The translations under genes and the position numbers were made by a program. A stretch of 45,815 nt of DNA from the NCBI GenBank assembly GCA_019309545.1, contig JAFDGA010000015.1:1-45815 (forward strand). The letters are read 5' to 3'. The notes under the pieces are model-generated. The model was not told the origin of the DNA and did no database searches. It saw only the letters and a program-made list of their open reading frames with translations. This DNA comes from Deltaproteobacteria bacterium. GTDB taxonomy: Bacteria; Desulfobacterota; Desulfobaccia; Desulfobaccales; Desulfobaccaceae. Positions 3,648-24,689 of this stretch are shown here, piece after piece; within the stretch, counting starts at the first letter, position 1; each line of letters opens with the position of its first letter.

Positions 3648-5063
3648 ATGGCTCACGAGGCCGTACTGGTGGTCGATGATGAGGCCGCCATCCGCAGAGC
3701 GCTCAGCGAACTTTTAGATGCCGAGGGCTACGAAGTGGAGACCGCCGCGGACGGCGAGATCGCCTTACAAATGCTTCAGGAACGAGTCTACGATCTGGTA
3801 TTAGCCGACCTTTTCCTGCCCAAACTGGACGGCATGGAGATCTTGCAATACCTAGTACAACACGCCCCGGAGACGGTCTGCATCATCATCACCGGCCATG
3901 GCACCATCCCTAACGCCGTTGCCGCCATGCGTTTAGGGGCTTATGACTACCTGTGTAAGCCCATCGAAAGCGACGCCCTCCTGATGGTCTTAGACCGGGC
4001 CCTGGAACACCGCCGATTGAAAGAAGAAAATATTAGACTGAAGAAACAGCTTAAGAAAAAATACGGGTTTGATAATATTGTCGGCATTAGTGAGGCAATT
4101 TATAAAATTTTTGATATTATTCGCAAGGTCGCTGACACCGACAGCACAATTTTGCTTCTCGGGGAATCGGGTACCGGCAAAGAACTCATTGCCCGCGCCA
4201 TCCATTATAACAGTGAACGACGGGAAGGCCCGCTGATTGCGGTAAATTGTGCGGCGATTCCGGAAGAACTGCTGGAAAGCGAATTGTTCGGCCACGAACG
4301 GGGAGCCTTTACTCATGCGATTCGGACCCGCTACGGGCGTTTCGAGCAGGCTAACGGCGGCACTATCTTCCTCGATGAAATCGGGGACATGAGCCCCAAC
4401 CTCCAAGTGAAGATCAATCGGGTATTACAGGAACATCAGTTTGAGCGCATCGGCGGACTCAAACCCATCAAAGTCAATATCCGGGTTATTGCCGCCACCA
4501 ATCAGGATCTGGAAAAGTTGGTCCAACAGGGACGGTTTCGGGAGGACCTTTATTACCGACTTAACGTAATTCCCATCAAGATTCCCCCTTTACGAGAGCG
4601 AACCAGTGACATCCCGTTGCTGGTAAAACATTTCTTGAATGAATTTTCAGCCAAAAAGGCAAAAAAGGTCAAAGGCTTCACCCCCGAGGCGATGAATCTG
4701 TTGGTGCAATATTCCTGGCCAGGAAACGTCCGAGAGTTGGAAAACCTGATGGAGCGACTGGTTATTTTAGCCGACCGCGAGATTTTGGAGGTCTCGGACC
4801 TGCCTGAGCGCTTCTTGACCCCTGCCAAAGAAAACCACGTGCTCCCCCTGGATATCCCAGAGGAGGGCATTCAATTAAATGAGGCGGTGTCCGAATTCGA
4901 GCGGCAGTTGATCATTCGGGCCCTAAACAAGACCGGCTGGGTCAAAAACCAGGCTGCCCAACTCCTGCATCTTAACCGGACTACCTTGATTGAAAAGATC
5001 AAAAAACAAAAGATCAGCAAACCCGGTGAAGTCCCCTCTGATTTAACCGTCAAACTTATCTGA
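3648..5063 (+). CDS. Sigma-54-dependent response regulator (NtrC family) with GAFTHA loop
   Basis: Cytoplasmic transcription activator of 471 aa. The receiver domain is residues 1-120, with phospho-acceptor Asp54, Thr82 and Lys104. The AAA+ domain (about 143-375) has Walker A GESGTGKE (172-179) and Walker B GGTIFLDEIG (237-246). A Fis-type helix-turn-helix ends the protein (NQAAQLLHLNRTTLIEKIK). The loop that contacts sigma-54, normally GAFTGA, reads GAFTHA (219-224), so the second Gly is replaced by His223. The start is supported by CGGAGGA just upstream. No histidine kinase gene is adjacent, so it is an orphan regulator here. It precedes the Fwd/Hdr-like cluster on the same strand, but I found no -24/-12 promoter in front of that cluster, so a regulatory link is only a possibility. 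Confidence 0.95.
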   Translation: MAHEAVLVVDDEAAIRRALSELLDAEGYEVETAADGEIALQMLQERVYDLVLADLFLPKLDGMEILQYLVQHAPETVCIIITGHGTIPNAVAAMRLGAYDYLCKPIESDALLMVLDRALEHRRLKEENIRLKKQLKKKYGFDNIVGISEAIYKIFDIIRKVADTDSTILLLGESGTGKELIARAIHYNSERREGPLIAVNCAAIPEELLESELFGHERGAFTHAIRTRYGRFEQANGGTIFLDEIGDMSPNLQVKINRVLQEHQFERIGGLKPIKVNIRVIAATNQDLEKLVQQGRFREDLYYRLNVIPIKIPPLRERTSDIPLLVKHFLNEFSAKKAKKVKGFTPEAMNLLVQYSWPGNVRELENLMERLVILADREILEVSDLPERFLTPAKENHVLPLDIPEEGIQLNEAVSEFERQLIIRALNKTGWVKNQAAQLLHLNRTTLIEKIKKQKISKPGEVPSDLTVKLI

Positions 5064-5196: not shown

Positions 5197-5243
5197 TATA
5201 CTTCTCTTTATTGGCGATAATGGCGCTGAGCTTTGAGAACCAC

Positions 5244-6536
5244 ATGGCAGAAGTGATCGAATCAGTTATCTGCACGGGTTGCGGTTGTTTATGCGACGAT
5301 CTGGACGTCACGCTCGAAGGCAATCAGATTATCGAGGTGGCCAATGTCTGTCTCTGGGGGGTCAACAGATTCATTGCCAGCAAAAAATTCCATTCCAAAA
5401 AGGACCGCCGCCGCATCCTTTCCCCGCAGCTCCGACGCAAAGGGCGGGCCATGGCGGTATCTTACGAATCCGCCTTGGAAGAGGCCGCCAATATTTTAGT
5501 CCAGGCCCGCCGTCCCCTGATCTATGGCCTTACCAATAATGGTTCCTGGGCCCAGGAGGCGGCCCTTAAACTGGCCTGTCGCTGGCAGGCCCGGCTGGAA
5601 CCGGCGGATCTGCCTTTTATGGCCCCCTATTTTGAGGCTCTGAGCAATCATGGGCTATACTGGACGCCTTTGGAAGAAATCCGGGATGAGGCAGATACCA
5701 TCTTATTCTGGGGGGGCAACCCGATACATTCCTGCCCCCGGCATGTGGTGCGCTATTCGGTGTTTAGCCGGGGGCGGTTCATCGAACGCGGAATAGAAGA
5801 ACGACAGGTAGCCGCCGTGGATATCTATCCCACCGAGACCGCCAAATTCTGTAAGCCTTTCATCCAAATCGACCCGGGACAGGAACTGGATCTGATCAAG
5901 GGGGTAATCGCTGCCTTGACCGATGGATCAGACCCCCCGGCCCGGATTAAAGGAACCCGGAAGCTGGCTAAGTTGCTCTCCGAAGCCAGCTATGGGGTGA
6001 TCTTTGTGGGCCGCGGGGCTAGCTACGGTCCGGCCCGAGAACTTCTCGATCACCTGGCCCGGCTGGTCGTCTGGCTCAATAAGCGGGTGCCATTTACCTT
6101 GTTTCCCCTGGCCAGCGATTTCAATGCCAGCGGCCTTTATCAACTGCTGCTGCGGGAAACCGGCAGTCCCTACGCCCCAGATTTCGGGGACTCCTCGGGT
6201 TTTGCCAGTCATTCTGTCCGGGTGGACTTGCGCGAGGTGGACGCTTTGCTGGTAACCGGCGCTGATCTGTTCTGGTTTTTACCCGAGGACCAGGCCCAGG
6301 AGCTCAAACGCCGGCAGGTGCCGATTGTGGCTCTGTCCCCCTTTGCCAACCGGACCACGGCCCAGGCCCAGGTAGTGTTTCCTGTAGCCTTGGCCGGCAT
6401 TGAAACCGAAGAGATCGCCTATCGCATGGATGGCCTACCGGTGGAATTACCCAGGCTGATTTCCAGCCGTTTCCGGTCTGACCACCAGGTTCTGGCAGAC
6501 CTGGAACAGGCTCTGACCGGTAGGTCAAGAGATTAA
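5244..6536 (+). CDS. FwdB-like protein (formylmethanofuran dehydrogenase subunit B homologue), metal ligand missing
   Basis: About 430 aa, close to the length of archaeal FwdB, a molybdopterin-family catalytic subunit. Cys10, Cys13, Cys17 and Cys36 reproduce the FwdB N-terminal [4Fe-4S] spacing (CTGCGCLCDD, then NVC). Later blocks also match, for example FWGGNP, PRHVVRYSVFSRG and the C-terminal ETEEIAYRMDGLPV. By my remembered alignment, archaeal CHGP, which contains the W/Mo ligand Cys/Sec, corresponds here to Phe125-Met-Ala-Pro128 with no gap up to the next conserved block. The pterin metal ligand is therefore probably absent, and no FwdD (rest of the pterin site) or FwdC follows. I start at 5244 because that places the first Cys where the family has it; ATG 5220 and TTG 5211 are alternatives. 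First gene of the cluster. Confidence 0.85.
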   Translation: MAEVIESVICTGCGCLCDDLDVTLEGNQIIEVANVCLWGVNRFIASKKFHSKKDRRRILSPQLRRKGRAMAVSYESALEEAANILVQARRPLIYGLTNNGSWAQEAALKLACRWQARLEPADLPFMAPYFEALSNHGLYWTPLEEIRDEADTILFWGGNPIHSCPRHVVRYSVFSRGRFIERGIEERQVAAVDIYPTETAKFCKPFIQIDPGQELDLIKGVIAALTDGSDPPARIKGTRKLAKLLSEASYGVIFVGRGASYGPARELLDHLARLVVWLNKRVPFTLFPLASDFNASGLYQLLLRETGSPYAPDFGDSSGFASHSVRVDLREVDALLVTGADLFWFLPEDQAQELKRRQVPIVALSPFANRTTAQAQVVFPVALAGIETEEIAYRMDGLPVELPRLISSRFRSDHQVLADLEQALTGRSRD

Positions 6537-6599
6537 ATATTGCATGTTTTTCAAGCTGACTGACTTTACTCATATGAGCCTTAAAAGGAGGATGTAGCA

Positions 6600-7127
6600 A
6601 TGACTGAAACCACCGGAACAAATCCTGTGGTGCGCCTGGAGACGACTATGGGGCCGATTAAAGCGGAATTATGGCCTGATAAAGCCCCTATAACGGTGGC
6701 CAATTTTTTGACCTATGTCAAAGAAGGGTTTTATGACGGCCTCATTTTTCACCGGGCCACTCCCATGTTTATGGTGCAAACCGGCGGTTTTGAGCCGGGC
6801 ATGGTCTATCGGCCGCCGACGCACCCGCCGATTGATAATGAAGCGGCCAACGGTGAGAAGAACAAACGGGGTACTCTGGCAATGGCCAGGGCTTTTCCCA
6901 TTAAAAGCGCCGCGGCCCAATTCTTTATTAATCTAGTCGATAATCCGAAACTGGATCATAAGGGGCCTGAGCCACAAAACTATGGCTATGCCGTGTTTGG
7001 CCAGGTCATTGAGGGCATGGGAACGGTGGAACGGATGACCACGGTCAAGTTAACGGTTCGGGAAAACCATAAAGATGTCCCCCTGGAAGATATCAAGCTT
7101 ATCCGGGCTATAGTAGAGCAAGAGTGA
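6600..7127 (+). CDS. Cyclophilin-type peptidyl-prolyl cis-trans isomerase
   Basis: Cytoplasmic prolyl isomerase of 175 aa with no signal peptide. The cyclophilin core is visible: FHRATPMFMVQTGGF carries the catalytic Arg and the Gln/Gly pocket. It is followed by RGTLAMAR, AAAQFFINLVDNPKLD and YAVFGQVIEGM. It is preceded by a strong AAAGGAGG ribosome site. It lies between the fwdB-like and fwdA-like genes on the same strand, with gaps of about 60 and 80 bp. That placement could mean help in folding the complex or could be accidental. No active-site loss is evident. Confidence 0.93.
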   Translation: MTETTGTNPVVRLETTMGPIKAELWPDKAPITVANFLTYVKEGFYDGLIFHRATPMFMVQTGGFEPGMVYRPPTHPPIDNEAANGEKNKRGTLAMARAFPIKSAAAQFFINLVDNPKLDHKGPEPQNYGYAVFGQVIEGMGTVERMTTVKLTVRENHKDVPLEDIKLIRAIVEQE

Positions 7128-7210
7128 TCCGGAGGGCCGTGGGAACCTTGTCTGAGCTATCCCGGGGCCAATAATAACAGGTACGGTTCTTTTAATGAAA
7201 ACCAAAAGTT

Positions 7211-8587
7211 ATGATGCGTCTCAAAATTGCTCAAGGTCGCCTGTATGATCCCACCCAGGGTTGGGAGGGGGAGGTGGGAGATCTTTATGTCGAGGGAGAT
7301 CGCATCGTTGCTCCCCTACCAGAAGTAGATCGAGTCATCGATGCTCAGGGACAGATGGTGGTAGCCGGGGGGATTGAGCTGCGCGGCCAGGTCGCCACTT
7401 ATGGCCTGAATTATTTACGTTTGTGGGGCTTGTTGCCATCTGCCCGGGAAATCGGCGAATTATATGCCTCACTGGGATTTACTCATGTCCATGAGCCCTT
7501 TTTGACCTTATATACCGCTAAGTATACCCATCGTGAACTGGCAGCGCTGCCGGTAGTTGACACTTCGGCATCCTTAACCCTGAATATCCGCGACCTGGAT
7601 AAATGGCTACGATTACCGGAACAATTAGGCGAGGTGGGTCAGAACCTGCAATTTTTGTTGGAGCAGACCCGTTCCCTGAACCTGCGGATCATGGAGCCGT
7701 ATGTCCGCTTCCGGCAAGACTATTTTGCGCATCGGAACATCCGCACCGAGGAAATTCTGGAGATTCTGGCCACACTGGCGCAGTCGCATAACCTTACCCT
7801 GACTCTGGAGGCCAGTCCGGGGATTATACGCCTGCCACTACCAGCGCCAACCGCATTCCATCTTGCCGCTCTGGGTCCGGCCCTAATTGAAGATGATCTG
7901 GTCGAGGCAACCCTGGGACATCTGGAAAAAGGAACTACGGTGGATTTAGGACTGATGCCACCGAAAGGTTCACAGAATTTTGCCAACCTGCCGGTTCAGA
8001 TCAATCTGGGATTCTTTCATCCTTTAAACCTTTGTCCCCCCCATTCCCCGGCCGCGGCTCAGCGGGCTTTAGTTCTGGCCTTGAAATATCAAGGGACAAA
8101 TCTGGCCTTTTCCGGCGCGGGCTCCTTCCTGACCCCAATAAGTCAATATTCTCGGATCTTTTCGTGGCTGGCAGACCAGGGCGCCCGTCGGCAGGATTGG
8201 GGAGACAGCCTGCCTTCCCGTGAATATTCGCTGGCCGAATGGGTCAGGATGACGCGGACCTTACCGGCCCAACTATTAGGTCTTACGGAGCGCGGCCATC
8301 TCGGTGTCGGGGCTCGGGCTGATATCGCCGTCTATGACCTGCCCGGAGCCGATAAACGGATCAATTGGGGCCAGTCCTTGAGCCGTTGCCGGTTTTTGCT
8401 TAAGGCCGGGGAAACAGTGATCGATAATTTTAATCTGGTAAAGCCTGAAATCTCCAAGGCTACCTATTATCTTCAGACCGGCATCGAAGCCAGTCCCTGG
8501 CTAAAGGAGGTTTGTCAATATCGCAGTTTTCGTCTGGAAAACCTCTGGGTTCATGACCACCTAGGGAACCACTGGATAGGGATCTGA
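7211..8587 (+). CDS. FwdA-like amidohydrolase-fold protein with degenerate metal site
   Basis: About 458 aa, shorter than archaeal FwdA (about 570 aa). Family blocks are recognisable: GGIELRGQVA near 53-62, THVHEPFLTLYTAKYTHREL, and the C-terminal LLGLTERGHLGVGARADIAVYD. In FwdA the dinuclear metal site uses an HxH, a carboxylated Lys, further His residues and an Asp. Here the HxH positions are Arg58 and Gln60. The Lys of IKLVNP is Arg in LRIMEP, the HLHCNN block is TLTLEA, and the TDHPNG block is FSGAGS. These pairings are my manual alignment. Hydrolysis of formylmethanofuran is therefore unlikely, and a scaffold or altered role is more plausible. The start is uncertain by one codon (ATGATG). 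Its stop lies 2 bp before the next gene. Confidence 0.82.
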   Translation: MMRLKIAQGRLYDPTQGWEGEVGDLYVEGDRIVAPLPEVDRVIDAQGQMVVAGGIELRGQVATYGLNYLRLWGLLPSAREIGELYASLGFTHVHEPFLTLYTAKYTHRELAALPVVDTSASLTLNIRDLDKWLRLPEQLGEVGQNLQFLLEQTRSLNLRIMEPYVRFRQDYFAHRNIRTEEILEILATLAQSHNLTLTLEASPGIIRLPLPAPTAFHLAALGPALIEDDLVEATLGHLEKGTTVDLGLMPPKGSQNFANLPVQINLGFFHPLNLCPPHSPAAAQRALVLALKYQGTNLAFSGAGSFLTPISQYSRIFSWLADQGARRQDWGDSLPSREYSLAEWVRMTRTLPAQLLGLTERGHLGVGARADIAVYDLPGADKRINWGQSLSRCRFLLKAGETVIDNFNLVKPEISKATYYLQTGIEASPWLKEVCQYRSFRLENLWVHDHLGNHWIGI

Positions 8588-8589
8588 TA

Positions 8590-9045
8590 ATGGCCACGGT
8601 CGAGGAAGTCCTGGAATTTCTCCCCCGCACTGATTGTGGACAGTGTGGCATGACCTGTGCTGAATTCGCCGCTCTTTTGGTGTCGAGGGATTTATCCCCG
8701 GAAGACTGTCCGGTGCTGCATGAACCCGATTATGCCGGATATATCGAGGCCCTCCATGAGATCCTTGGGCCAGCCGAAGCGGCTCCGACCGCGGGGATGC
8801 TTATTGACCAGGACAAATGCAATGGCTGTGGCATCTGTGTGGCAGTATGCGAATATCACTTGGGCAACTGTGATGAGGCCCGTTTAGGCCGGGGTCCCCG
8901 ACCTCAGGATAAGGTAGTTTTCCATGTGGTCAATGGCACGGTGGTGGTGGTCCACCAGGATCTTTGTTCCCGCTTAATCCAAGCTGCCGAAAGGTGCAAC
9001 AAGTGCGCCGACCATTGCCCGGTCGGAGCCATCACCTTGTTTTAA
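8590..9045 (+). CDS. Iron-sulfur protein: PF04060-type [4Fe-4S] domain plus ferredoxin domain
   Basis: Electron carrier of 151 aa. The N-terminal module resembles the 4Fe-4S domain (PF04060) also seen in corrinoid/acetyl-CoA-synthase and RnfB proteins, with Cys16, Cys19, Cys23 and Cys40. The first gap is C-x2-C-x3-C rather than the more usual x4. The C-terminal part is a two-cluster ferredoxin: Cys77, Cys80, Cys83, Cys87, and Cys126, Cys136, Cys139, Cys143 (CNGCGICVAVC; CNKCADHCPVGAI). The start is 2 bp after the fwdA-like stop, so translation is probably coupled. It occupies the position where FwdF/FwdG polyferredoxins occur in archaeal operons. I infer that it passes electrons between the Fwd-like and Hdr-like proteins. 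Confidence 0.85.
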   Translation: MATVEEVLEFLPRTDCGQCGMTCAEFAALLVSRDLSPEDCPVLHEPDYAGYIEALHEILGPAEAAPTAGMLIDQDKCNGCGICVAVCEYHLGNCDEARLGRGPRPQDKVVFHVVNGTVVVVHQDLCSRLIQAAERCNKCADHCPVGAITLF

Positions 9046-9059
9046 ATTTAGGGATCAAC

Positions 9060-9551
9060 ATGGCTGAGACCTTAGATATTCAAGCTCTGGACCCGCATTT
9101 TAAAGATGAGGTGGCCCAGGAACCCGGATGCGAGCATCTGCTGCGCTGCTTTTCCTGTGGGGTCTGTACCGCTACCTGTCCGGTTAGTGAGATCGAGCCC
9201 AGCTTTAGTCCCAGCCGGATTATCAGGCAGGTCCTTTACGGTCTGCGAGAGCCGCTCCTCTCCTCCCCGGCCCTCTGGTATTGTGCCCGTTGTGCCAATT
9301 GCTCTTTTCAGTGCCCTCAGGATGTCAGGTTTTTGGATATTATACAGGGTTTGCGGAATATGGCCCGGCGTAGCGGCCAGATTAGCGAGGAGCGGGCTGC
9401 CCAGCTGGCCCGGGGCGAGGAGTTGATTCAGGAACTCAGGCGGCGATTCATAGCCGCCATCCTTTCCGGACCTAAGGAAGCAGAAGATCTCAAGGCCACC
9501 CTGATCCAACTGGCCTCGGAATTGGACATCAATGAAGGAAAGGAGCCGTAG
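9060..9551 (+). CDS. HdrC-like iron-sulfur subunit
   Basis: 163-aa homologue of heterodisulfide reductase subunit C (also QmoC/GlpC-like), an electron-transfer subunit with two [4Fe-4S] clusters. Both cysteine sets are complete: Cys30, 33, 36, 40 (CFSCGVCTATCP) and Cys75, 78, 81, 85 (CARCANCSFQCP). There is no membrane segment, so unlike QmoC it is soluble. I start at the ATG 9060, 15 bp after the previous stop; the longer frame overlaps that gene and adds nothing conserved. HdrC normally pairs with HdrB, whose CCG-motif cysteine domains are not found in this window, so the terminal acceptor is unclear. Confidence 0.93.
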   Translation: MAETLDIQALDPHFKDEVAQEPGCEHLLRCFSCGVCTATCPVSEIEPSFSPSRIIRQVLYGLREPLLSSPALWYCARCANCSFQCPQDVRFLDIIQGLRNMARRSGQISEERAAQLARGEELIQELRRRFIAAILSGPKEAEDLKATLIQLASELDINEGKEP

Positions 9552-9557
9552 ACTTAC

Positions 9558-12500
9558 ATGGCCTGGATCCGGCCATTAGAGCGAGTCGTCAGTCCGCGGG
9601 TGCTGGTTGTCGGCGGGGGCATCGCCGGCATGCAGGCCGCCCTGGATGTGGCCAAGGTAGGGCTACCAGTGACGCTGGTCGAACAAGGCCCTTCCATCGG
9701 CGGACTTATGGCCCAACTGGACAAAACTTTCCCTACCAACGATTGTGCCATGTGTATTCTCTCCCCCCGCATGCTGGAGATCGCCCGCCACCCCTTGATT
9801 GAGATTCTGACCTTGACCCAGGTCGTGCAAATCCAGGGAAGGCCCGGAGATTTTCAGGTAGTTTTATGCCGTCGGCCGCGTTTTGTGGACCTCAGCAAAT
9901 GTTCTGGGTGTGGAGAGTGTACCCGGGTCTGTCCCCGCCGCATCCCGGACCCCTATAATCTGGGTCTCAACCAGACCAAAGCTATCCATGTGCCCTTTCC
10001 TCAGGCGGTCCCATTAGCCGCTTATATCATACCCGAAGCCTGCCGTTATTTTGAGGGCAAGAAATGCGAAGCCTGCATCAAGGTTTGCCAGGCCGGAGCC
10101 ATTGATCTTCATCAGACCCCAGAAATTTTGGTTCAGCAATTTGGGGCTGTCATCCTGGCCACCGGGGTTGGCGTAGCCCCGGCGGATAATTTTCCGGGTT
10201 ATGAAAACCCTGACGTGGTCACCAGCCAGGAATTTGAACGCCTCCTGAGCGCCACCGGTCCGCATGCCGGGAAGTTGCTGCGGCCTTCCGATCAGACCCC
10301 ACCAGGCCGCATTGCCTTTATTCAATGCGTCGGCTCCCGCGACCCCAGAGAAGGAGTAGCCCACTGTTCGGCCGTATGTTGCATGGCCAGTCTCAAAGAG
10401 GCACTGGTGGCCAAAGAGATCAGCGCCACCGAAGTTCAGGCGACCATCTTTTATATGGACATCCGAACCCATGGCAAAGGCTTTGAACGTTACCTGCAAC
10501 AGGCTCAAGACCATGGCGTGCAATTAATCCGCTCCCGGGTGACGGCCGTTGGTCCCCGGCCTCAAGGTGGCGTGGTGATCCGCTATACCGACCCCGGCGG
10601 GCGGCCCGATGAAGACTCGTTTGATCTGGCCGTGTTGGCGGTGGGTTTAAGGCCAACGGCAAGTTCCAGACAATGGGTCCGCCGGTTGGGAATGGGTCTC
10701 AATGAATCCGGCTTTATCAAGACCTCGCTCCTGGTTCCAACCACTACAGAGCGGGAAGGAGTATTTATCTGTGGTACGGCCAGTGGGCCCATGGATATCC
10801 CCGAAGCGGTTACGTCGGCCAGTGCCAGCGCCGCCGCGGCTTCACAATTATTGACCCTAGGTGTACGGACCCGGCCTGCTAAAGCCAAATTGCCCGGACC
10901 CCGCCGTGTTGCTGATTATCCTCCCCGGATCGGAGTTTTTCTCTGCCATTGTGGCACCAATATTGCCAAAGTTATCGATATCGGAAAATTAGCCACGGCG
11001 GTTGAAAAGCTGCCCGCTGTGGTCCATGTCGAAGACAACCTGTTTACCTGTTCGGTTGATTCTACCAAGCGGATGAGCGAAACCATCCGGGATTTAGGAC
11101 TCAATAGGGTCGTGGTGGCCGCTTGCACCCCCCGGACCCACGAGGTGGTATTCCGGGAGGTCCTGGCTGAGGCCGGCCTTAATCCGGGCTATTTTGCCTT
11201 TGCCAATATCCGGGAACAGTGCTCCTGGGTGCACCAGGATGACCAAGCCGCAGCCCTTCATAAGGCCGAACACGTGGTGGCCATGGCCGTCGGTCGAGCC
11301 TGGATGCTGACCCCGATTCAACCCCAAGGCTTCCCGGTGAATCCCAAGGCCCTGGTCCTGGGAGGCGGGGTGGCTGGGATGAGTGCGGCCCTGACATTAG
11401 GCGATCAAGGATTTCACACTTATTTGCTGGAGCGCAGCCGAGATTTAGGAGGAATAGCGCGACAATTACATTTCACCTTGGAAGGCGCAGACCCGCAAAA
11501 GTTTTTACAGGAACTGAAGGCCGAAGTCTACCGCCATCCCAATGTTGAGGTCTTAACCCAGACCGAAGCGGTTCAGGTTAATGGGCATGTCGGGCAATTC
11601 CAGACCTTGGTGCGCCAACAAACCGCGGCGGGACCGCTGAAACGTTGGTTGGATCACGGAGTTACGATCGTGGCCACCGGAGGTAGAGTATTTAATCCCC
11701 AGGGGCGCTATCTTTACGGCACCGACCCGCGCATTCTCACCCAACTGGAGTTGGAGGCCCGGATTAAGGCTAATGATCCCCAGTTGGAAAAGGTCCGGCA
11801 GGTGGTGATGATCCAATGTGTGGGCTCTCGAGAACCCGAACATCCCTATTGCAGCCGGATCTGTTGTTCTGAGGCCCTAAAAAACGCCCTCCTGTTAAAA
11901 GAGCGCTATCCTTTGACAGAAGTCATGATTCTTTATCGAGATCTCCGGGCTTATGGCCTCCAAGAGATTTATTATCAAGATGCCAAACAGCAGGGTGTGG
12001 AGTTTATTCCCTTTGACCCGAAACGACCCCCACAGTTAGAGATTACCAAACGCCGGCAACTCAAGCTCTTAATCAGGGATGAACTCCTGGACCAAGAACT
12101 GAGCCTGAGCGCCGATCTGGTGATCTTGAGTGTCGGGATTGAGCCGGCGGTAGGCAGTGACCAAGTAGCCCGACTCCTGGGACTATCCCAGACCCTGGAA
12201 GGTTTCTTCCTGGAGGCCCATCAGAAATTGCGTCCTGTCGATGTGATTAGCGAGGGCATCTTTTTGTGCGGCCTGGCCCATTATCCCAAGACCCTGGGAG
12301 AAACGGTAGCCCAGGCCCAGGCCGCGGCCATCCGCGCTGCCAGTATTTTGTTTCAAACCGAACTGCTCAGTGGTGAGATGGCCGCCTCGATTACTACCGG
12401 CAAATGCCGACGCTGTCTGCACTGTCTGGAAGTGTGCCCCTTTAAAGCGGTGGGGCTGGAGGCTAACGGTAAACCTACGATCCAAACCGAAGTCTGTCAG

Positions 12501-12605
12501 GGCTGCGGAATTTGCGCCTCTGAATGTCCGGCTGAGGCCATTCAGATGAGCCGCATTTCCGATGCGGAATTGGAGGCCCAGATCGATGCGGCTTTAATGG
12601 CCTGA
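9558..12605 (+). CDS. Large HdrA-like flavoprotein with two FAD modules
   Basis: 1015 aa, about twice the core HdrA/QmoA unit. Module 1 (about 1-450) has Rossmann motif VVGGGIAGMQAA (18-29), the family pair Cys63/Cys66, a ferredoxin set at Cys115, 118, 121, 125, and Cys162, 170, 173, 177. Module 2 starts near 455 with the canonical HdrA N-terminal domain (FLCHCGTNIA, FTCSVDS, ACTPRTHE, REQCSWVH). A second FAD domain follows (LGGGVAGMSAAL, about 599-610), and the C-terminal 2[4Fe-4S] ferredoxin lies near 949-995. HdrA is the flavin subunit that bifurcates electrons in methanogens, and Qmo proteins serve sulfate reduction. The N-terminal half resembles QmoA and the rest canonical HdrA. The ATG lies 6 bp after hdrC. 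Predicted cytoplasmic. Confidence 0.95.
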   Translation: MAWIRPLERVVSPRVLVVGGGIAGMQAALDVAKVGLPVTLVEQGPSIGGLMAQLDKTFPTNDCAMCILSPRMLEIARHPLIEILTLTQVVQIQGRPGDFQVVLCRRPRFVDLSKCSGCGECTRVCPRRIPDPYNLGLNQTKAIHVPFPQAVPLAAYIIPEACRYFEGKKCEACIKVCQAGAIDLHQTPEILVQQFGAVILATGVGVAPADNFPGYENPDVVTSQEFERLLSATGPHAGKLLRPSDQTPPGRIAFIQCVGSRDPREGVAHCSAVCCMASLKEALVAKEISATEVQATIFYMDIRTHGKGFERYLQQAQDHGVQLIRSRVTAVGPRPQGGVVIRYTDPGGRPDEDSFDLAVLAVGLRPTASSRQWVRRLGMGLNESGFIKTSLLVPTTTEREGVFICGTASGPMDIPEAVTSASASAAAASQLLTLGVRTRPAKAKLPGPRRVADYPPRIGVFLCHCGTNIAKVIDIGKLATAVEKLPAVVHVEDNLFTCSVDSTKRMSETIRDLGLNRVVVAACTPRTHEVVFREVLAEAGLNPGYFAFANIREQCSWVHQDDQAAALHKAEHVVAMAVGRAWMLTPIQPQGFPVNPKALVLGGGVAGMSAALTLGDQGFHTYLLERSRDLGGIARQLHFTLEGADPQKFLQELKAEVYRHPNVEVLTQTEAVQVNGHVGQFQTLVRQQTAAGPLKRWLDHGVTIVATGGRVFNPQGRYLYGTDPRILTQLELEARIKANDPQLEKVRQVVMIQCVGSREPEHPYCSRICCSEALKNALLLKERYPLTEVMILYRDLRAYGLQEIYYQDAKQQGVEFIPFDPKRPPQLEITKRRQLKLLIRDELLDQELSLSADLVILSVGIEPAVGSDQVARLLGLSQTLEGFFLEAHQKLRPVDVISEGIFLCGLAHYPKTLGETVAQAQAAAIRAASILFQTELLSGEMAASITTGKCRRCLHCLEVCPFKAVGLEANGKPTIQTEVCQGCGICASECPAEAIQMSRISDAELEAQIDAALMA

Positions 12606-12617
12606 ACCGGAGGGAAA

Positions 12618-13037
12618 ATGATACGAGAAAGTTATTGTGGCCTGTGCGATGACTGTCAGTTAGGGAACCGTGATTTCCTAGAGAGCGTCGCTCAGTTGAA
12701 GGAATATGTAGATCAGTTCCGGGCTGACTGGTGGGTGCATTGTTTTCCCGATGGAGAGGGATTCAGTTTTGCTGAATTTCGCAAAGGTATCAACTGGTTT
12801 TTGTCACATACGGAATGCCCCGGGTGCAAGGGCGGACGAGGATTAGAAAATTGCCCCATCCGCATCTGTGCCCGGCAGCGTCATATCGAGCACTGCTACG
12901 AATGCCCGGACCTCAAAGGCTGTGACAAATTCGATCACCTCCTCATTGAATTTCCGGACCTAAAAATTAATCTCCTGCGGCGCCAGTTAAAGTATAAAGC
13001 ATGTCAGTACCATCGGCACCTGGACCAAGCCAAGTAG
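12618..13037 (+). CDS. DUF3795 cysteine-rich protein
   Basis: 139-aa protein of the DUF3795 family, function unknown. It has the family pattern YCGLCDDC at the N-terminus and CPIRICARQRHIEHCYECPDLKGCDKF in the C-terminal half, with thirteen or so cysteines that could bind metal or a cluster. A GGAGGG ribosome site precedes the ATG, and the gene begins 12 bp after hdrA, so it is the last member of the cluster. The context suggests a role in maturing or regulating the iron-sulfur complex, but nothing in the sequence proves it. Confidence 0.85.
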   Translation: MIRESYCGLCDDCQLGNRDFLESVAQLKEYVDQFRADWWVHCFPDGEGFSFAEFRKGINWFLSHTECPGCKGGRGLENCPIRICARQRHIEHCYECPDLKGCDKFDHLLIEFPDLKINLLRRQLKYKACQYHRHLDQAK

Positions 13038-20220: not shown

Positions 20221-20826
20221 ATGACTGAAACCAGGGATAATGGCTCCCAAACCAACGACGAACAGGTCGAAGCAGCAACCGCTGAAACCACTGAGGCTGG
20301 GGCAGAAGAAACAGAAGGAGTTGATCGGGAAACCATTCTCCGACAATTAGAGGAAAAGACCCAAGAGGCCCAGCAATATTATGAAAGAATGCTGCGGCTG
20401 GCCGCAGAAGTGGAAAATCTAAAAAAACGTCAGGAGCGGGAACGGACCGAATTGGTCCAGTTTGCCAATGAATCCTTGATTAGGGAGCTTTTGCCGGTAG
20501 TGGATAATCTGGAATTGGCATTGGAACATAGCCGCCAACAGGACGCCCCCCCTGCCATGGTGGAGGGTGTCGAAATGGTGTTGCGGGGATTTCTCCAAGC
20601 ACTGGCCAAGTTTGGCGTCTCCCAAATTAACGCCTTGGGAGAAAAATTTGATCCAGCCTATCACAATGCCGTAATGCAACAAGAAGATTCCGAGGCCGAG
20701 GATCAGACCATTATTCAAGAGCTCCAGAAGGGATATCTTTTGCAGAATAGGCTCCTGAGACCGACAATGGTGGTTGTGGCCCGCAATACTTCCGGGACTG
20801 CCACCCAAGCCAATGTTAACAAATAA
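20221..20826 (+). CDS. grpE: Nucleotide exchange factor GrpE
   Basis: 201 aa. It releases ADP from DnaK during the chaperone cycle. An acidic, low-complexity N-terminus (about 1-40) precedes a long coiled coil (EEKTQEAQQYYERMLRLAAEVENLKKRQERER). The beta-wing domain follows, with the family motif FDPAYHNAVMQQEDSEAEDQTIIQELQKGYLLQNRLLRP. AAGGAG lies upstream of the ATG. It is 142 bp after hrcA and 37 bp before dnaK. Confidence 0.97.
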   Translation: MTETRDNGSQTNDEQVEAATAETTEAGAEETEGVDRETILRQLEEKTQEAQQYYERMLRLAAEVENLKKRQERERTELVQFANESLIRELLPVVDNLELALEHSRQQDAPPAMVEGVEMVLRGFLQALAKFGVSQINALGEKFDPAYHNAVMQQEDSEAEDQTIIQELQKGYLLQNRLLRPTMVVVARNTSGTATQANVNK

Positions 20827-20863
20827 AAATAACTCTACTATTTTTGGGGAGGAAATATAACCT

Positions 20864-22762
20864 ATGGCTAAAGTAATTGGCATTGATTTAGGAACCACTA
20901 ACTCCTGTGTAGCAATTATGGAGGGGGGGGAGCCGAAAGTTATTCCTAATGTGGAGGGTAGCCGCACCACCCCCTCGGTGGTGGCCTTTACGGATAGCGG
21001 CGAACGTCTGGTCGGTCAGGTTGCCAAGCGGCAGGCGGTGACCAATCCGCAAAATACCGTATTTTCGGTCAAACGGTTGATCGGTCGGAAATTCAGTGAT
21101 CCCGAGGTCCAAAGGGACATCAAAATCTTGCCGTATAAGATCGTTCAGGCCGATAATGGTGATGCGCATGTGGAGATTCAGGGCAAACAGCATAGCCCGG
21201 CGGAAATCTCTTCCATGATCCTCGGCAAAATGAAACAAACCGCCGAAGAGTATCTGGGAGAAAAGGTTACCGATGCAGTGGTTACCGTCCCGGCTTACTT
21301 TAACGACTCGCAGCGTCAGGCCACTAAAGATGCCGGCCGCATCGCCGGACTCAATGTCCTCAGAATCATCAATGAGCCCACCGCGGCATCTCTGGCTTAT
21401 GGTCTGGACAAGAAAAAAGATGAGAAAATTGCCGTCTTTGACCTGGGCGGAGGAACCTTCGATATCTCCATCCTGGAGATCGGTGAAGGGGTTTTCGAAG
21501 TTAAATCGACCAACGGCAATACTCATCTGGGCGGGGATGATTTTGATCAGCGGGTCATCGAGTACCTCGCCGACGAATTCCGCAAGGACCAGGGCATTGA
21601 TTTGCGCCAGGACCGGATGGCTTTACAGCGCCTCAAGGAAGCCGCGGAAAAGGCCAAAATGGAACTCTCGACCTCCTTGGAGACCGAGATCAACTTACCG
21701 TTCATCACGGCGGACGCTTCTGGTCCCAAGCATATGGTGCTCAAACTGACCCGGGCCAAACTGGAGTCCCTGGTCGATGACCTGATCGAAAAGGTGGTCG
21801 AGCCTTGCCGGATTGCCCTTAAGGATGCCAACCTGTCGGCCCCGGACATTGATGAGATCATTCTGGTCGGGGGCATGACCCGCATGCCCAAGGTCCAACA
21901 AAAAGTCAAAGAGATCTTTGGCAAAGAACCTCATAAAGGCGTTAACCCCGATGAGGTTGTGGCCATCGGCGCCGCTATCCAGGGCGGGGTTCTGAAAGGG
22001 GAAGTCAAAGATGTGCTGTTGTTGGATGTCACACCTCTCTCCTTGGGCATTGAAACCCTGGGTGGAGTATTTACCAAGCTGATCGAGAAGAACACCACCA
22101 TTCCGACCAAACGCAGCCAGATCTTTTCGACCGCCGCCGACAACCAACCCGCGGTGAGCATCCATGTGCTCCAGGGAGAACGGGAGATGGCGGAAGATAA
22201 CAAGACCCTGGGCCGATTTGAGTTGGTGGGGATTCCTCCTGCGCCTCGGGGGGTGCCCCAGATCGAAGTGACCTTTGATATCGACGCCAACGGGATAGTC
22301 CATGTTTCGGCCAAAGATCTGGGTACTGGGAGGGAGCAGTCGATCAAAATCACCGCGTCCAGCGGTCTGACCGAGGAGGAGATCAAACGGCTGACTAAGG
22401 ATGCTGAACTTCATGCTGAGGAAGATAAACGCAAGCGACAGTTGGCCGAGGCCCGGAATCAGGCTGATTCTCTAATCTATACCACTGAAAAAAGCCTGAC
22501 GGAATTGGGTGATAAAGTGGACTCCGTCACCAAATCCGATATTACAGGTAAGATCGATCGCCTCAAACAGGCCATGGCCGGTACCGATATCGACGAAATC
22601 AAAAGGCTCAGCGATGAGCTGATGAAATCCTCTCACAAGTTGGCCGAACAGATCTATGCTCAAACCGCGGGCCCACGGGGAGAAGAGGCAGCCGGAGCTC
22701 AGGAAAAGCCCAAAGGCCCCGAAGAAGAAGTAGTGGAAGCCGAATTCGAGGAAGTTAAATAA
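20864..22762 (+). CDS. dnaK: Chaperone DnaK (Hsp70)
   Basis: 632 aa, full length. ATP-driven folding chaperone. The ATPase domain opens with [13 protein letters not shown] and contains the second phosphate motif [13 protein letters not shown] and the adenosine motif [13 protein letters not shown]. The substrate-binding domain carries [14 protein letters not shown]. The acidic C-terminal tail ends in [13 protein letters not shown], the usual EEVK-type terminus. GGGGAGGA precedes the ATG. A strong terminator follows at 22785-22813. No dnaJ is present in the window. Confidence 0.99.
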
Positions 22763-22784
22763 CCTCGCCACCGCGATGATCAGG

Positions 22785-22813
22785 GTGGGGGGCTGATCGT
22801 CCCCCACTTTTTT
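22785..22813 (+). terminator. Intrinsic terminator after dnaK
   Basis: GTGGGGGG, seven-base loop, TCCCCCAC (one G-U pair), followed by TTTTTT. It ends the hrcA-grpE-dnaK transcript just before the next gene. Confidence 0.85.
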
Positions 22814-22838: not shown

Positions 22839-24689
22839 ATGTCCCTCCCTTATTCCCGCCTCCTGATGGGGGTGCTGCTCGGAGCGGTAATTCTTATTGC
22901 TGCTTGTATCCCGCCCGAATTACTGTCCAGACCGTTTCGCTCGGAGACTGCTGAAAGGCTTTATAAGGAAGCGGAAAGTTTGTATCAGGCCCATCGCTAC
23001 GCGGAAGCGCAAAACAGCTTTGAACAATACCTCCGCACTTATCCCCAAGGACAGCACCGCCGTCTGGTAATGCTTCGCACTGCTGAAATATCAGGCATAA
23101 GGGGAAATTGGTCAAAGGCTCGGAGCCGCTACGAAAAGCTATTAGAGAGCAGACCCGAGAGCCCTTTAGCCTGGCAAGCCCGCTATGGCATCGGCCAGTC
23201 ATATTTTAAACAGGGTCAATACCAACAGGCCCTCCAGGTATTGGAAGGATTGACTGCCTCAAATCTGAATCCTGAGCTCCGGTTCAAGACTAATGCCTTA
23301 CTCGCTGAATTGGCACTAAAAACCGGCAATGTTTCCCAGGCCTTTGTCCGCCTGCAACTGGCTAATCAAAACTTGGCCTTCGGTGATGTCGAATGGTTCC
23401 AGGATATCAAAACCAGATTAGTAGAACAGGCCCAACCCCCGGAACTGGTCCGTCTGGCGGAACTTTACAGCAATGAACCGCTGAGCGCGGCATTGCTGCT
23501 CCAACTGGTCCGATTGGAACTCCAGAAGGGACATCTGGAAACAGCCCGAGAATGGTTAAATACCTTAATGCAGCGATTTCCCAACAGCCCGGAAACGGCC
23601 ATGGCAGCCGAATGGCTGGGGCCGGAGTCAACTACCTTCATCGCTCCCCAGAACCCGGCGCTGGGCTGCTTGCTGCCGCTGACCGGCGATTACGAAGCGG
23701 TCGGCCGCCGGGTACGTCAGGGGATGGAACTGGCGGCGGACCAGACCAAAGTAGAACTGATCTTTGAGGATTGTCAAAATTCCCCTTCTCTGGCGGCTCA
23801 GGCGGTGGATGCCCTGAGTCAAAACCAAAGAATCCTGGCGGTGCTCGGTCCGCTAACCTCGGCGACCGCCAAAGCCGCGGCTCAAGCTGCTCAGCGACAG
23901 GGCCTGCCCATTGTCACCCTGACCCAAAAGGCAGACATTACCGCTATCGGCGACCTGGTATTTCGTGATTTTCTGACCAGTCGCATGCAGGTCAAGGCAT
24001 TGCTGACCTATATGGTGGTGCAGCGAGGGATCCGGCGTTATGCCATCCTCTACCCTGAATCTGCTTATGGCCAGACGTTCCGCCGCCTTTTTGATGAAGA
24101 AATTGTCAGCCAGGGCGGATTGTTGGTTTCCCAAGTCTCCTACCCGGAAGGGACCCAATATTTTTCCGGGGTTATTGCTACCCTGGCCGAGGCCTATCAG
24201 CCCAGTACCGGCAGTACCCCGGCATTTGAGGCGCTCTTTGTTCCGGATGAGCCGTCCGAAGTCGCGGCTCTGGCCTCACAACTGAAAAGCAGCCCGCTGG
24301 CCGGAATTCAATTACTGGGAACCAATCTGATTCATTCTTCCCACACTTTGCAAACAGCCGCGGCTTCCTTGGAGGGCATTTTATTTCCCGATGCTTTCTT
24401 CCCCCAAGATTCCAATCCGGAAGTTCAGGCTTTTGTCCAGGCCTTTCAGACCCGTTATCAACAAACACCTCAATACCTGGCTGCCCAAGGCTACAGTGCG
24501 GTCAAACTCTTAGCCGACCTGCTGCACCACCACCCCGGCCTGACCCGCCGAGACCTGGCCCAACGGCTGGGAGAATGGCAACCAGGGCCAGGGCTACCCT
24601 GGTTTCAGGGCTTTGATTTCCAACGGGAAGCGCAGTTGGACATTAAAATTCTGACCATTCGGGATGGTCAGTTTGAGCTGGTCCAATAA
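22839..24689 (+). CDS. Lipoprotein with TPR and type-1 periplasmic-binding domain (LpoA/LivK-like)
   Basis: 616 aa. The N-terminus is a lipoprotein signal (LLGAVILIAAC, lipidated Cys about 23). Residues 40-270 form tetratricopeptide-like helical repeats (AEAQNSFEQYLRTYPQG; YKQGQYQQALQVLEG-type units). The C-terminal 350 residues are a periplasmic-binding fold of the branched-chain amino-acid type (LGCLLPLTGDYEAVGRRVRQGMELA; AVLGPLTSATAKAAAQAAQRQGLPIVTLTQ). This domain order is that of LpoA, the outer-membrane activator of penicillin-binding protein 1A, and of related ABC-type substrate-binding lipoproteins. I favour an envelope regulator rather than a transporter, because no permease genes are nearby. 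Confidence 0.85.
   Translation: MSLPYSRLLMGVLLGAVILIAACIPPELLSRPFRSETAERLYKEAESLYQAHRYAEAQNSFEQYLRTYPQGQHRRLVMLRTAEISGIRGNWSKARSRYEKLLESRPESPLAWQARYGIGQSYFKQGQYQQALQVLEGLTASNLNPELRFKTNALLAELALKTGNVSQAFVRLQLANQNLAFGDVEWFQDIKTRLVEQAQPPELVRLAELYSNEPLSAALLLQLVRLELQKGHLETAREWLNTLMQRFPNSPETAMAAEWLGPESTTFIAPQNPALGCLLPLTGDYEAVGRRVRQGMELAADQTKVELIFEDCQNSPSLAAQAVDALSQNQRILAVLGPLTSATAKAAAQAAQRQGLPIVTLTQKADITAIGDLVFRDFLTSRMQVKALLTYMVVQRGIRRYAILYPESAYGQTFRRLFDEEIVSQGGLLVSQVSYPEGTQYFSGVIATLAEAYQPSTGSTPAFEALFVPDEPSEVAALASQLKSSPLAGIQLLGTNLIHSSHTLQTAAASLEGILFPDAFFPQDSNPEVQAFVQAFQTRYQQTPQYLAAQGYSAVKLLADLLHHHPGLTRRDLAQRLGEWQPGPGLPWFQGFDFQREAQLDIKILTIRDGQFELVQ

Follow-up and report, generated by a model that had tools for sequence, protein, structure and literature searches.

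In methanogens, supercomplexes of heterodisulphide reductase (Hdr) and formylmethanofuran dehydrogenase (Fwd) link electron bifurcation to carbon dioxide fixation. What, then, might homologues of both enzymes be doing side by side in an apparent sulphate reducer? The question is raised by contig JAFDGA010000015.1 of assembly GCA_019309545.1, from a deltaproteobacterium of the Desulfobaccaceae, of which the whole stretch analysed (45,815 nucleotides) is called here the window. At 5220-13037, seven genes of its forward strand encode relatives of FwdB and FwdA, an iron-sulphur protein, HdrC and a double HdrA, together with a cyclophilin and a DUF3795 protein. Read from the sequences, this gene set is conserved and its iron-sulphur and flavin motifs are intact, while the catalytic residues are lost and FwdC, FwdD and the methanofuran pathway are absent from the genomes searched for them; judged on these grounds, the Fwd-like set is not a formylmethanofuran dehydrogenase. 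We think it somewhat probable that the seven genes, with a further operon on contig C14 of the same genome, specify an assembly that corresponds, in bacteria, to the Hdr-Fwd complex of archaea and in which a dead Fwd core would take part in Hdr-driven electron transfer linked to the acetyl-CoA pathway and its CO dehydrogenase.

The host genome (G000; 2.43 Mb, 99% complete) is that of a Desulfobacca relative, closest to Desulfobacca sp. STE_27, and its DsrA (567 bits) bears out the supposition, made in a preliminary description of the window, that the organism reduces sulphate.

A gene set kept together

Family scans recovered all seven genes under the family names first proposed for them. The FwdB-like protein (5244-6536, with an alternative in-frame ATG at 5220) matches TIGR03129 with E 4e-93, its 312 bits falling slightly short of the equivalog cut-off of 328, while the FwdA-like protein (7211-8587, 458 amino acids, amidohydrolase fold) reaches only 133 bits against TIGR03121 (E 1e-38), far short of the cut-off of 393. 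Between them lies a gene for a cyclophilin-type peptidyl-prolyl isomerase (6600-7127). There follow an iron-sulphur protein with PF04060 and Fer4 domains (8590-9045), an HdrC-like protein (9060-9551; TIGR03290, E 2.5e-21) carrying the CxxCxxCxxxC motif twice, and an HdrA-HdrA fusion (9558-12605) that matches HdrA2 in three stretches (E 5e-288); matches to HdrA chains of the Protein Data Bank (PDB) divide the latter into two units, and it holds two FAD-type Rossmann domains and several [4Fe-4S] motifs. The row ends with a cysteine-rich DUF3795 protein having 12 cysteines (12618-13037). The intergenic gaps are, in order, 63, 83, 2, 14, 6 and 12 bp, so that the spacing of 2-15 bp given earlier holds for the last five genes and fails for the first two gaps.

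When 395 genomes of the phylum were searched with the FwdA-like protein, 31 were found to carry its gene, and each of the 27 loci read has FwdB, FwdA and the iron-sulphur protein side by side: gene order is indeed conserved in related Desulfobacterota, and the PF04060 protein is the invariant partner of FwdB. The window's family (f1) and family f2, of the same order, share the arrangement FwdB-(cyclophilin)-FwdA-FeS-HdrC-HdrAA-DUF3795, where FeS is the iron-sulphur protein and HdrAA the double HdrA; the DUF3795 gene follows HdrAA in both, and the cyclophilin gene, present in only some relatives, is accessory. Family f71, to which Desulfacinum hydrothermale DSM 13146 belongs, retains FwdB-FwdA-FeS-HdrC-HdrAA, making three families with HdrC-HdrAA behind the triad, and f40 displays HdrA-HdrA-FeS-FwdB-FwdA. 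Outside the Hdr set, the genes around the cluster differ between relatives. The ratio of nonsynonymous to synonymous substitution rates (dN/dS) was computed against the nearest relative, at genus level, for five of the seven genes; it ranges over 0.03-0.18 (FwdB 0.14, FwdA 0.18, iron-sulphur protein 0.03, HdrC 0.10), low values which tell us that the genes are maintained rather than decaying. Conserved order and low dN/dS, taken together, argue that the cluster is not a product of chance.

A Fwd core without its catalytic residues

In the FwdB proteins of this Desulfobacterota clade, the tungsten or molybdenum ligand Cys118 is missing, as are His119 and Arg288 (each 0/29, M. wolfei numbering), whereas the archaeal Fwd sequences of the same alignment have Cys118 and His119 in 16/16 and Arg288 in 15/16. 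Position 290, a histidine in the archaeal enzymes, is replaced in the window protein and is occupied by aspartate in 27 of the 29. The cysteines of the [4Fe-4S] cluster, in contrast to this lost site, are retained in 29/29 (C10, C13, C17 and C36 in the window, counted from the 5244 start), and from this combination we infer that FwdB of the clade would be devoid of the metal cofactor. Its fold is nevertheless predicted to persist: the AlphaFold2 (AF2) model of the window protein has a template modelling (TM) score of 0.88 to FwdB of 5t5i, the NuoG fold being also among the matches.

An unrooted tree of 61 FwdB sequences splits into four groups: the Desulfobacterota clade (support 99/93), archaeal Fwd (99/95), the bacterial formyltransferase/hydrolase complex Fhc (100/99) and a shorter form, FwdB2 (100/100). 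Fhc groups with archaeal Fwd (99/97), apart from the Desulfobacterota, and loss of the metal ligand in the latter therefore looks independent of Fhc. Within the Fhc clade, a Planctomyces-labelled FwdB (L115, 9950-11278) retains all three of Cys118, His119 and Arg288, which most of the Fhc-type FwdB proteins compared do not.

The FwdA-like protein of the window is without the positions taken, after FwdA structures, as the metal ligands (HxH, a lysine, another histidine and an aspartate), while the archaeal Fwd and Fhc sequences compared retain them; the alignment itself speaks of conservation only. Three residues, His92, Ser119 and Asp245, are invariant and specific to the family. The predicted fold is that of FwdA/FhcA (TM 0.80-0.84, FhcA first), and the fold ranked after it scores clearly lower.

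Missing subunits and a second operon

No match to FwdC (TIGR03122) rises over the cut-off in the 31 carrier genomes, that of the window included; the matches below it lie mostly in large open reading frames (ORFs) with a glutamate-synthase-type GXGXG look, and in a few small ones in families f13 and f3. FwdD, sought as a lone Molydop_binding ORF, was not found in 5 genomes. The pathway around methanofuran is likewise wanting: Ftr was not found in 31 genomes nor MfnB in 20, methanogen controls being positive for both. As for HdrB, the CCG protein with non-cubane clusters, none is present in the conserved gene set. The supposition that these subunits are not encoded elsewhere stands for FwdC and FwdD, which did not turn up, and falls for HdrB: none is at the locus, and an HdrB-like gene exists on contig C20, in a separate operon of HdrABC-MvhD-MetV type. 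That cluster (L174, 1548-8807) comprises HdrC, the HdrB-like protein, an HdrA of 1478 amino acids, MvhD and a MetV-like protein.

The window does not hold the whole set. In f2 the cluster runs on into a polyferredoxin of about 298 amino acids, an HdrA-MvhD (FlpD) fusion of about 796 and an HdrA of about 550; in f71 and f40 the polyferredoxin, HdrA-MvhD and a further HdrA are upstream, two different orders being seen among these three families. HdrA, HdrC, MvhD and an FwdF-type polyferredoxin thus adjoin FwdB and FwdA in f2 and f71, and likewise, HdrC excepted, in f40. The window genome possesses the same three genes unlinked, as an operon on contig C14. The top family of the polyferredoxin is FwdF, FwdF chains make up most of the solved structures closest to it, and the MvhD part of the fusion matches MvhD from archaeal complexes. 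The polyferredoxin occurs in 29 of the 395 genomes and the FwdA-like protein in 31, with 26 having both (hypergeometric 2e-32, uncorrected for kinship); in G352, one of three apparent exceptions, FwdB stands at a contig end. These finds bring the set closer to the archaeal assembly than the window alone would suggest. Marks of an internal TGA had hinted at selenocysteine in the f40 polyferredoxin, a candidate dropped once the genes were read and no internal stop was seen.

Two other places in the host genome deserve mention here. A C14 cluster (L155, 2-3202) has HdrA-MvhD adjoining MetV-MetF-like genes, the latter named by eye. On contig C23, around 20800-22800 (L172), a formate dehydrogenase-like gene has an in-frame TGA, possibly for selenocysteine, and near it an ORF of 616 amino acids resembles, by eye, a NuoE/F-type protein.

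We can therefore understand what became of the first proposal. That the locus is a repurposed relative of the Hdr-Fwd assembly agrees with the conserved set and its lost catalytic residues; that it is a reduced one is true of FwdC and FwdD, and untrue in so far as the FwdF-like polyferredoxin and the HdrA-MvhD fusion belong to it from another contig. The borrowed idea that bifurcated electrons reduce carbon dioxide is contradicted by the lost ligand and catalytic residues of FwdB, the lost FwdA ligands and the lack of a methanofuran pathway.

A probable link with the acetyl-CoA pathway

Acetyl-CoA synthase is present in 29 of the 31 carriers, as compared with 269 of the 395 genomes overall. 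Of the two carriers that have none, one is a 78%-complete genome and the other, G080, also wants the polyferredoxin. In the host genome, the CO dehydrogenase/acetyl-CoA synthase operon is located on contig C1. A link to sulphate reduction as such was rejected: the carriers are mostly sulphate reducers, but six of the 31 have no DsrA hit over the cut-off, five of them in f13. Archaeal-type cdhA-cdhB genes lie close to the cluster in f40 (L051, L079) and in f3 (L052); an 835-amino-acid ORF of f40 that matches HdrC, at first taken for an HdrC fusion, is CdhA.

A parallel is offered by loci (L111, 9541-14626; L112, 6139-12029; also L110, L118, L134, L140, L136 and L103) that associate FwdB2, FwdD and a PF04060 protein, often adjoining cdhA-cdhB; they belong to Archaeoglobi, Nitrospinae, Chloroflexi and Dehalococcoidia. 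With Cys118 usually present, each looks like a carbon dioxide/formate module connected to CO dehydrogenase without FwdA. Its PF04060 protein is a full-length homologue, 39% identical, of the iron-sulphur protein of the window, and this shared partner, together with cdhA-cdhB, ties the pair formed by an FwdB-type module and its iron-sulphur protein to CO dehydrogenase in both domains of life.

What the assembly may do

Quite possibly, though we hold this only tentatively, the products work as a flavin-based bifurcating or confurcating supercomplex of Desulfobacterota that use the acetyl-CoA pathway, the dead Fwd core acting as an electron hub between the Hdr/MvhD flavins and the ferredoxin pool of CO dehydrogenase. 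The products of both operons would join into one complex; a two-electron donor would reduce MvhD and then the HdrA flavins, where bifurcation or confurcation would split or merge the electrons. These would next reach the [4Fe-4S] cluster of FwdB by way of the polyferredoxin, HdrC and the PF04060 protein. FwdB and FwdA would make a docking and electron-relay scaffold, in the manner of ElpA or of NuoG, the subunit of complex I that has the molybdoenzyme fold without a molybdenum cofactor, and between the scaffold and a low-potential carrier of the acetyl-CoA pathway there might be an exchange of electrons, the ferredoxin of CO dehydrogenase being the likeliest such carrier. ElpA is a truncated FdhA that has no cofactor and sits within an Hdr complex (PMC12350162).

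Several observations weigh against such a scaffold. In f13 and f3 the triad FwdB-FwdA-FeS stands alone, Hdr genes not adjoining it; in the window's lineage the link to CO dehydrogenase is co-occurrence only, the neighbourhood being seen in two subclades elsewhere; and the C23 formate dehydrogenase, checked as a candidate partner of MvhD, has no adjoining Hdr gene, that partner not having been found. Furthermore, FwdA of f40 (L079, L080, L081, L084) has the full set of metal ligands, the only such case in the clade, though the accompanying FwdB is without the tungsten or molybdenum ligand, so that some members may still be hydrolases; and the conserved pocket of FwdB, with its Asp290 and many invariant residues, exceeds the need of a bare scaffold. 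It is from these last two points that the main rival draws its strength, namely that the pocket has taken on a different reaction: the former metallopterin and FwdA cavities would hold a new substrate or cofactor, Hdr would drive a new redox reaction there, and FwdA would be a binding subunit except in f40, where it would act as a hydrolase. The three invariant residues of FwdA and the genus-level dN/dS of FwdB and FwdA speak in the same sense. Yet this repurposed enzyme has no candidate substrate, most lineages are without metal ligands and the neighbours beyond the Hdr set vary; we consider it rather unlikely.

An active carbon dioxide reductase or formate dehydrogenase, binding molybdenum or tungsten without the cysteine, could be imagined from the predicted intact fold of FwdB and from the precedent of molybdenum enzymes that have no protein ligand, such as arsenite oxidase, but the simultaneous loss of His119 and Arg288 and the absence of FwdD, which forms half of the cofactor site, from the five genomes searched make it improbable. 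The metallopterin lies at the B-D interface, and in Fhc its loss goes with the absence of D (PMC11656701). One might be tempted to see instead an Fhc-type complex of methanofuran-linked one-carbon oxidation, seeing that the FwdB of Fhc has no cofactor either and that FhcA is the first fold match of FwdA; this is hardly credible, with no Ftr/FhcD, no MfnB and no FhcC over the cut-off in the genomes searched, the metal site of the window FwdA lost and Fhc placed by the tree with archaeal Fwd, and gene content and tree led us to reject Fhc membership for the window lineage. That the genes are chance neighbours without a joint function would accord with f13 and f3, where neither HdrC/HdrAA nor the polyferredoxin operon adjoins the triad, and with the two unlinked operons of f1; it is very improbable in view of a set rearranged yet kept together in f2, f71 and f40, and co-distributed where unlinked.

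If the scaffold model is correct, a bacterial version having the wiring without the carbon dioxide chemistry would mean that the assembly is separable from methanofuran and reusable. It provides a testable candidate for low-potential electron movement in the acetyl-CoA pathway of sulphate reducers such as Desulfobacca and Desulfacinum hydrothermale, and a warning that the automatic label 'formylmethanofuran dehydrogenase' misleads in these bacteria.

Surroundings in the window

Upstream of fwdB, and separated from it by about 160 bp, is a sigma-54 response regulator of NtrC/AtoC type (3648-5063, same strand), a possible regulator; it was rejected as part of the cluster, since in relatives it does not adjoin it. 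Further on, the gene at 22839-24689, which has dnaK (20864-22762) on one side and a gene for a peptidase of family S58 on the other, encodes a fusion of tetratricopeptide (TPR) repeats with an LppC-like periplasmic-binding domain. The window gave no match in a plasmid collection.

Comparison with known systems

The open-access literature yielded no paper pairing formylmethanofuran dehydrogenase with Desulfobacca and none that describes a set of this kind in bacteria, subscription journals and preprints being outside the scope. In the Hakuba Actinobacteria the arrangement differs, being fwdDBA-ftr-fwdC with Cys118 (PMC7325909). The FwdB2-FwdD-FeS loci share with the present set the PF04060 partner, FwdB homology and, for f40 and f3, adjoining CO dehydrogenase genes; they differ in having FwdD, in mostly keeping Cys118, in the absence of an adjoining FwdA and in their separate FwdB clade. 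Fhc of Methylorubrum extorquens (PDB 6s6y) likewise pairs FwdA with an FwdB devoid of metallopterin, a state only predicted in our case, whereas the Desulfobacterota set forms its own FwdB clade, keeps the [4Fe-4S] cysteines, has Hdr partners and no FhcC or FhcD, and, in the window, has lost the FwdA metal site. A molybdenum-free subunit of molybdoenzyme fold with a structural or electron-carrying part, as we propose, is found in ElpABC-Hdr of Methanothermobacter marburgensis (PMC12350162) and in NuoG, the subunit being there of FdhA or NuoG type and here FwdB plus FwdA. The archaeal Hdr-Fwd/Fmd assemblies (the Fdh-Hdr-Fmd complex of Methanospirillum hungatei, PDB 7bkb, and the Elp/Mvh-Hdr-Fmd complex of Methanothermobacter) depart from the bacterial set in having FwdC, FwdD, HdrB and methanofuran, as well as the metal ligand of FwdB and the FwdA metal site that the window has lost; the bacterial set, for its part, has a doubled HdrA, MvhD fused to HdrA and an additional PF04060 iron-sulphur subunit. 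Both have homologues of FwdB, FwdA, the FwdF-type polyferredoxin, HdrA, HdrC and MvhD, with the same folds predicted for the bacterial FwdB and FwdA.

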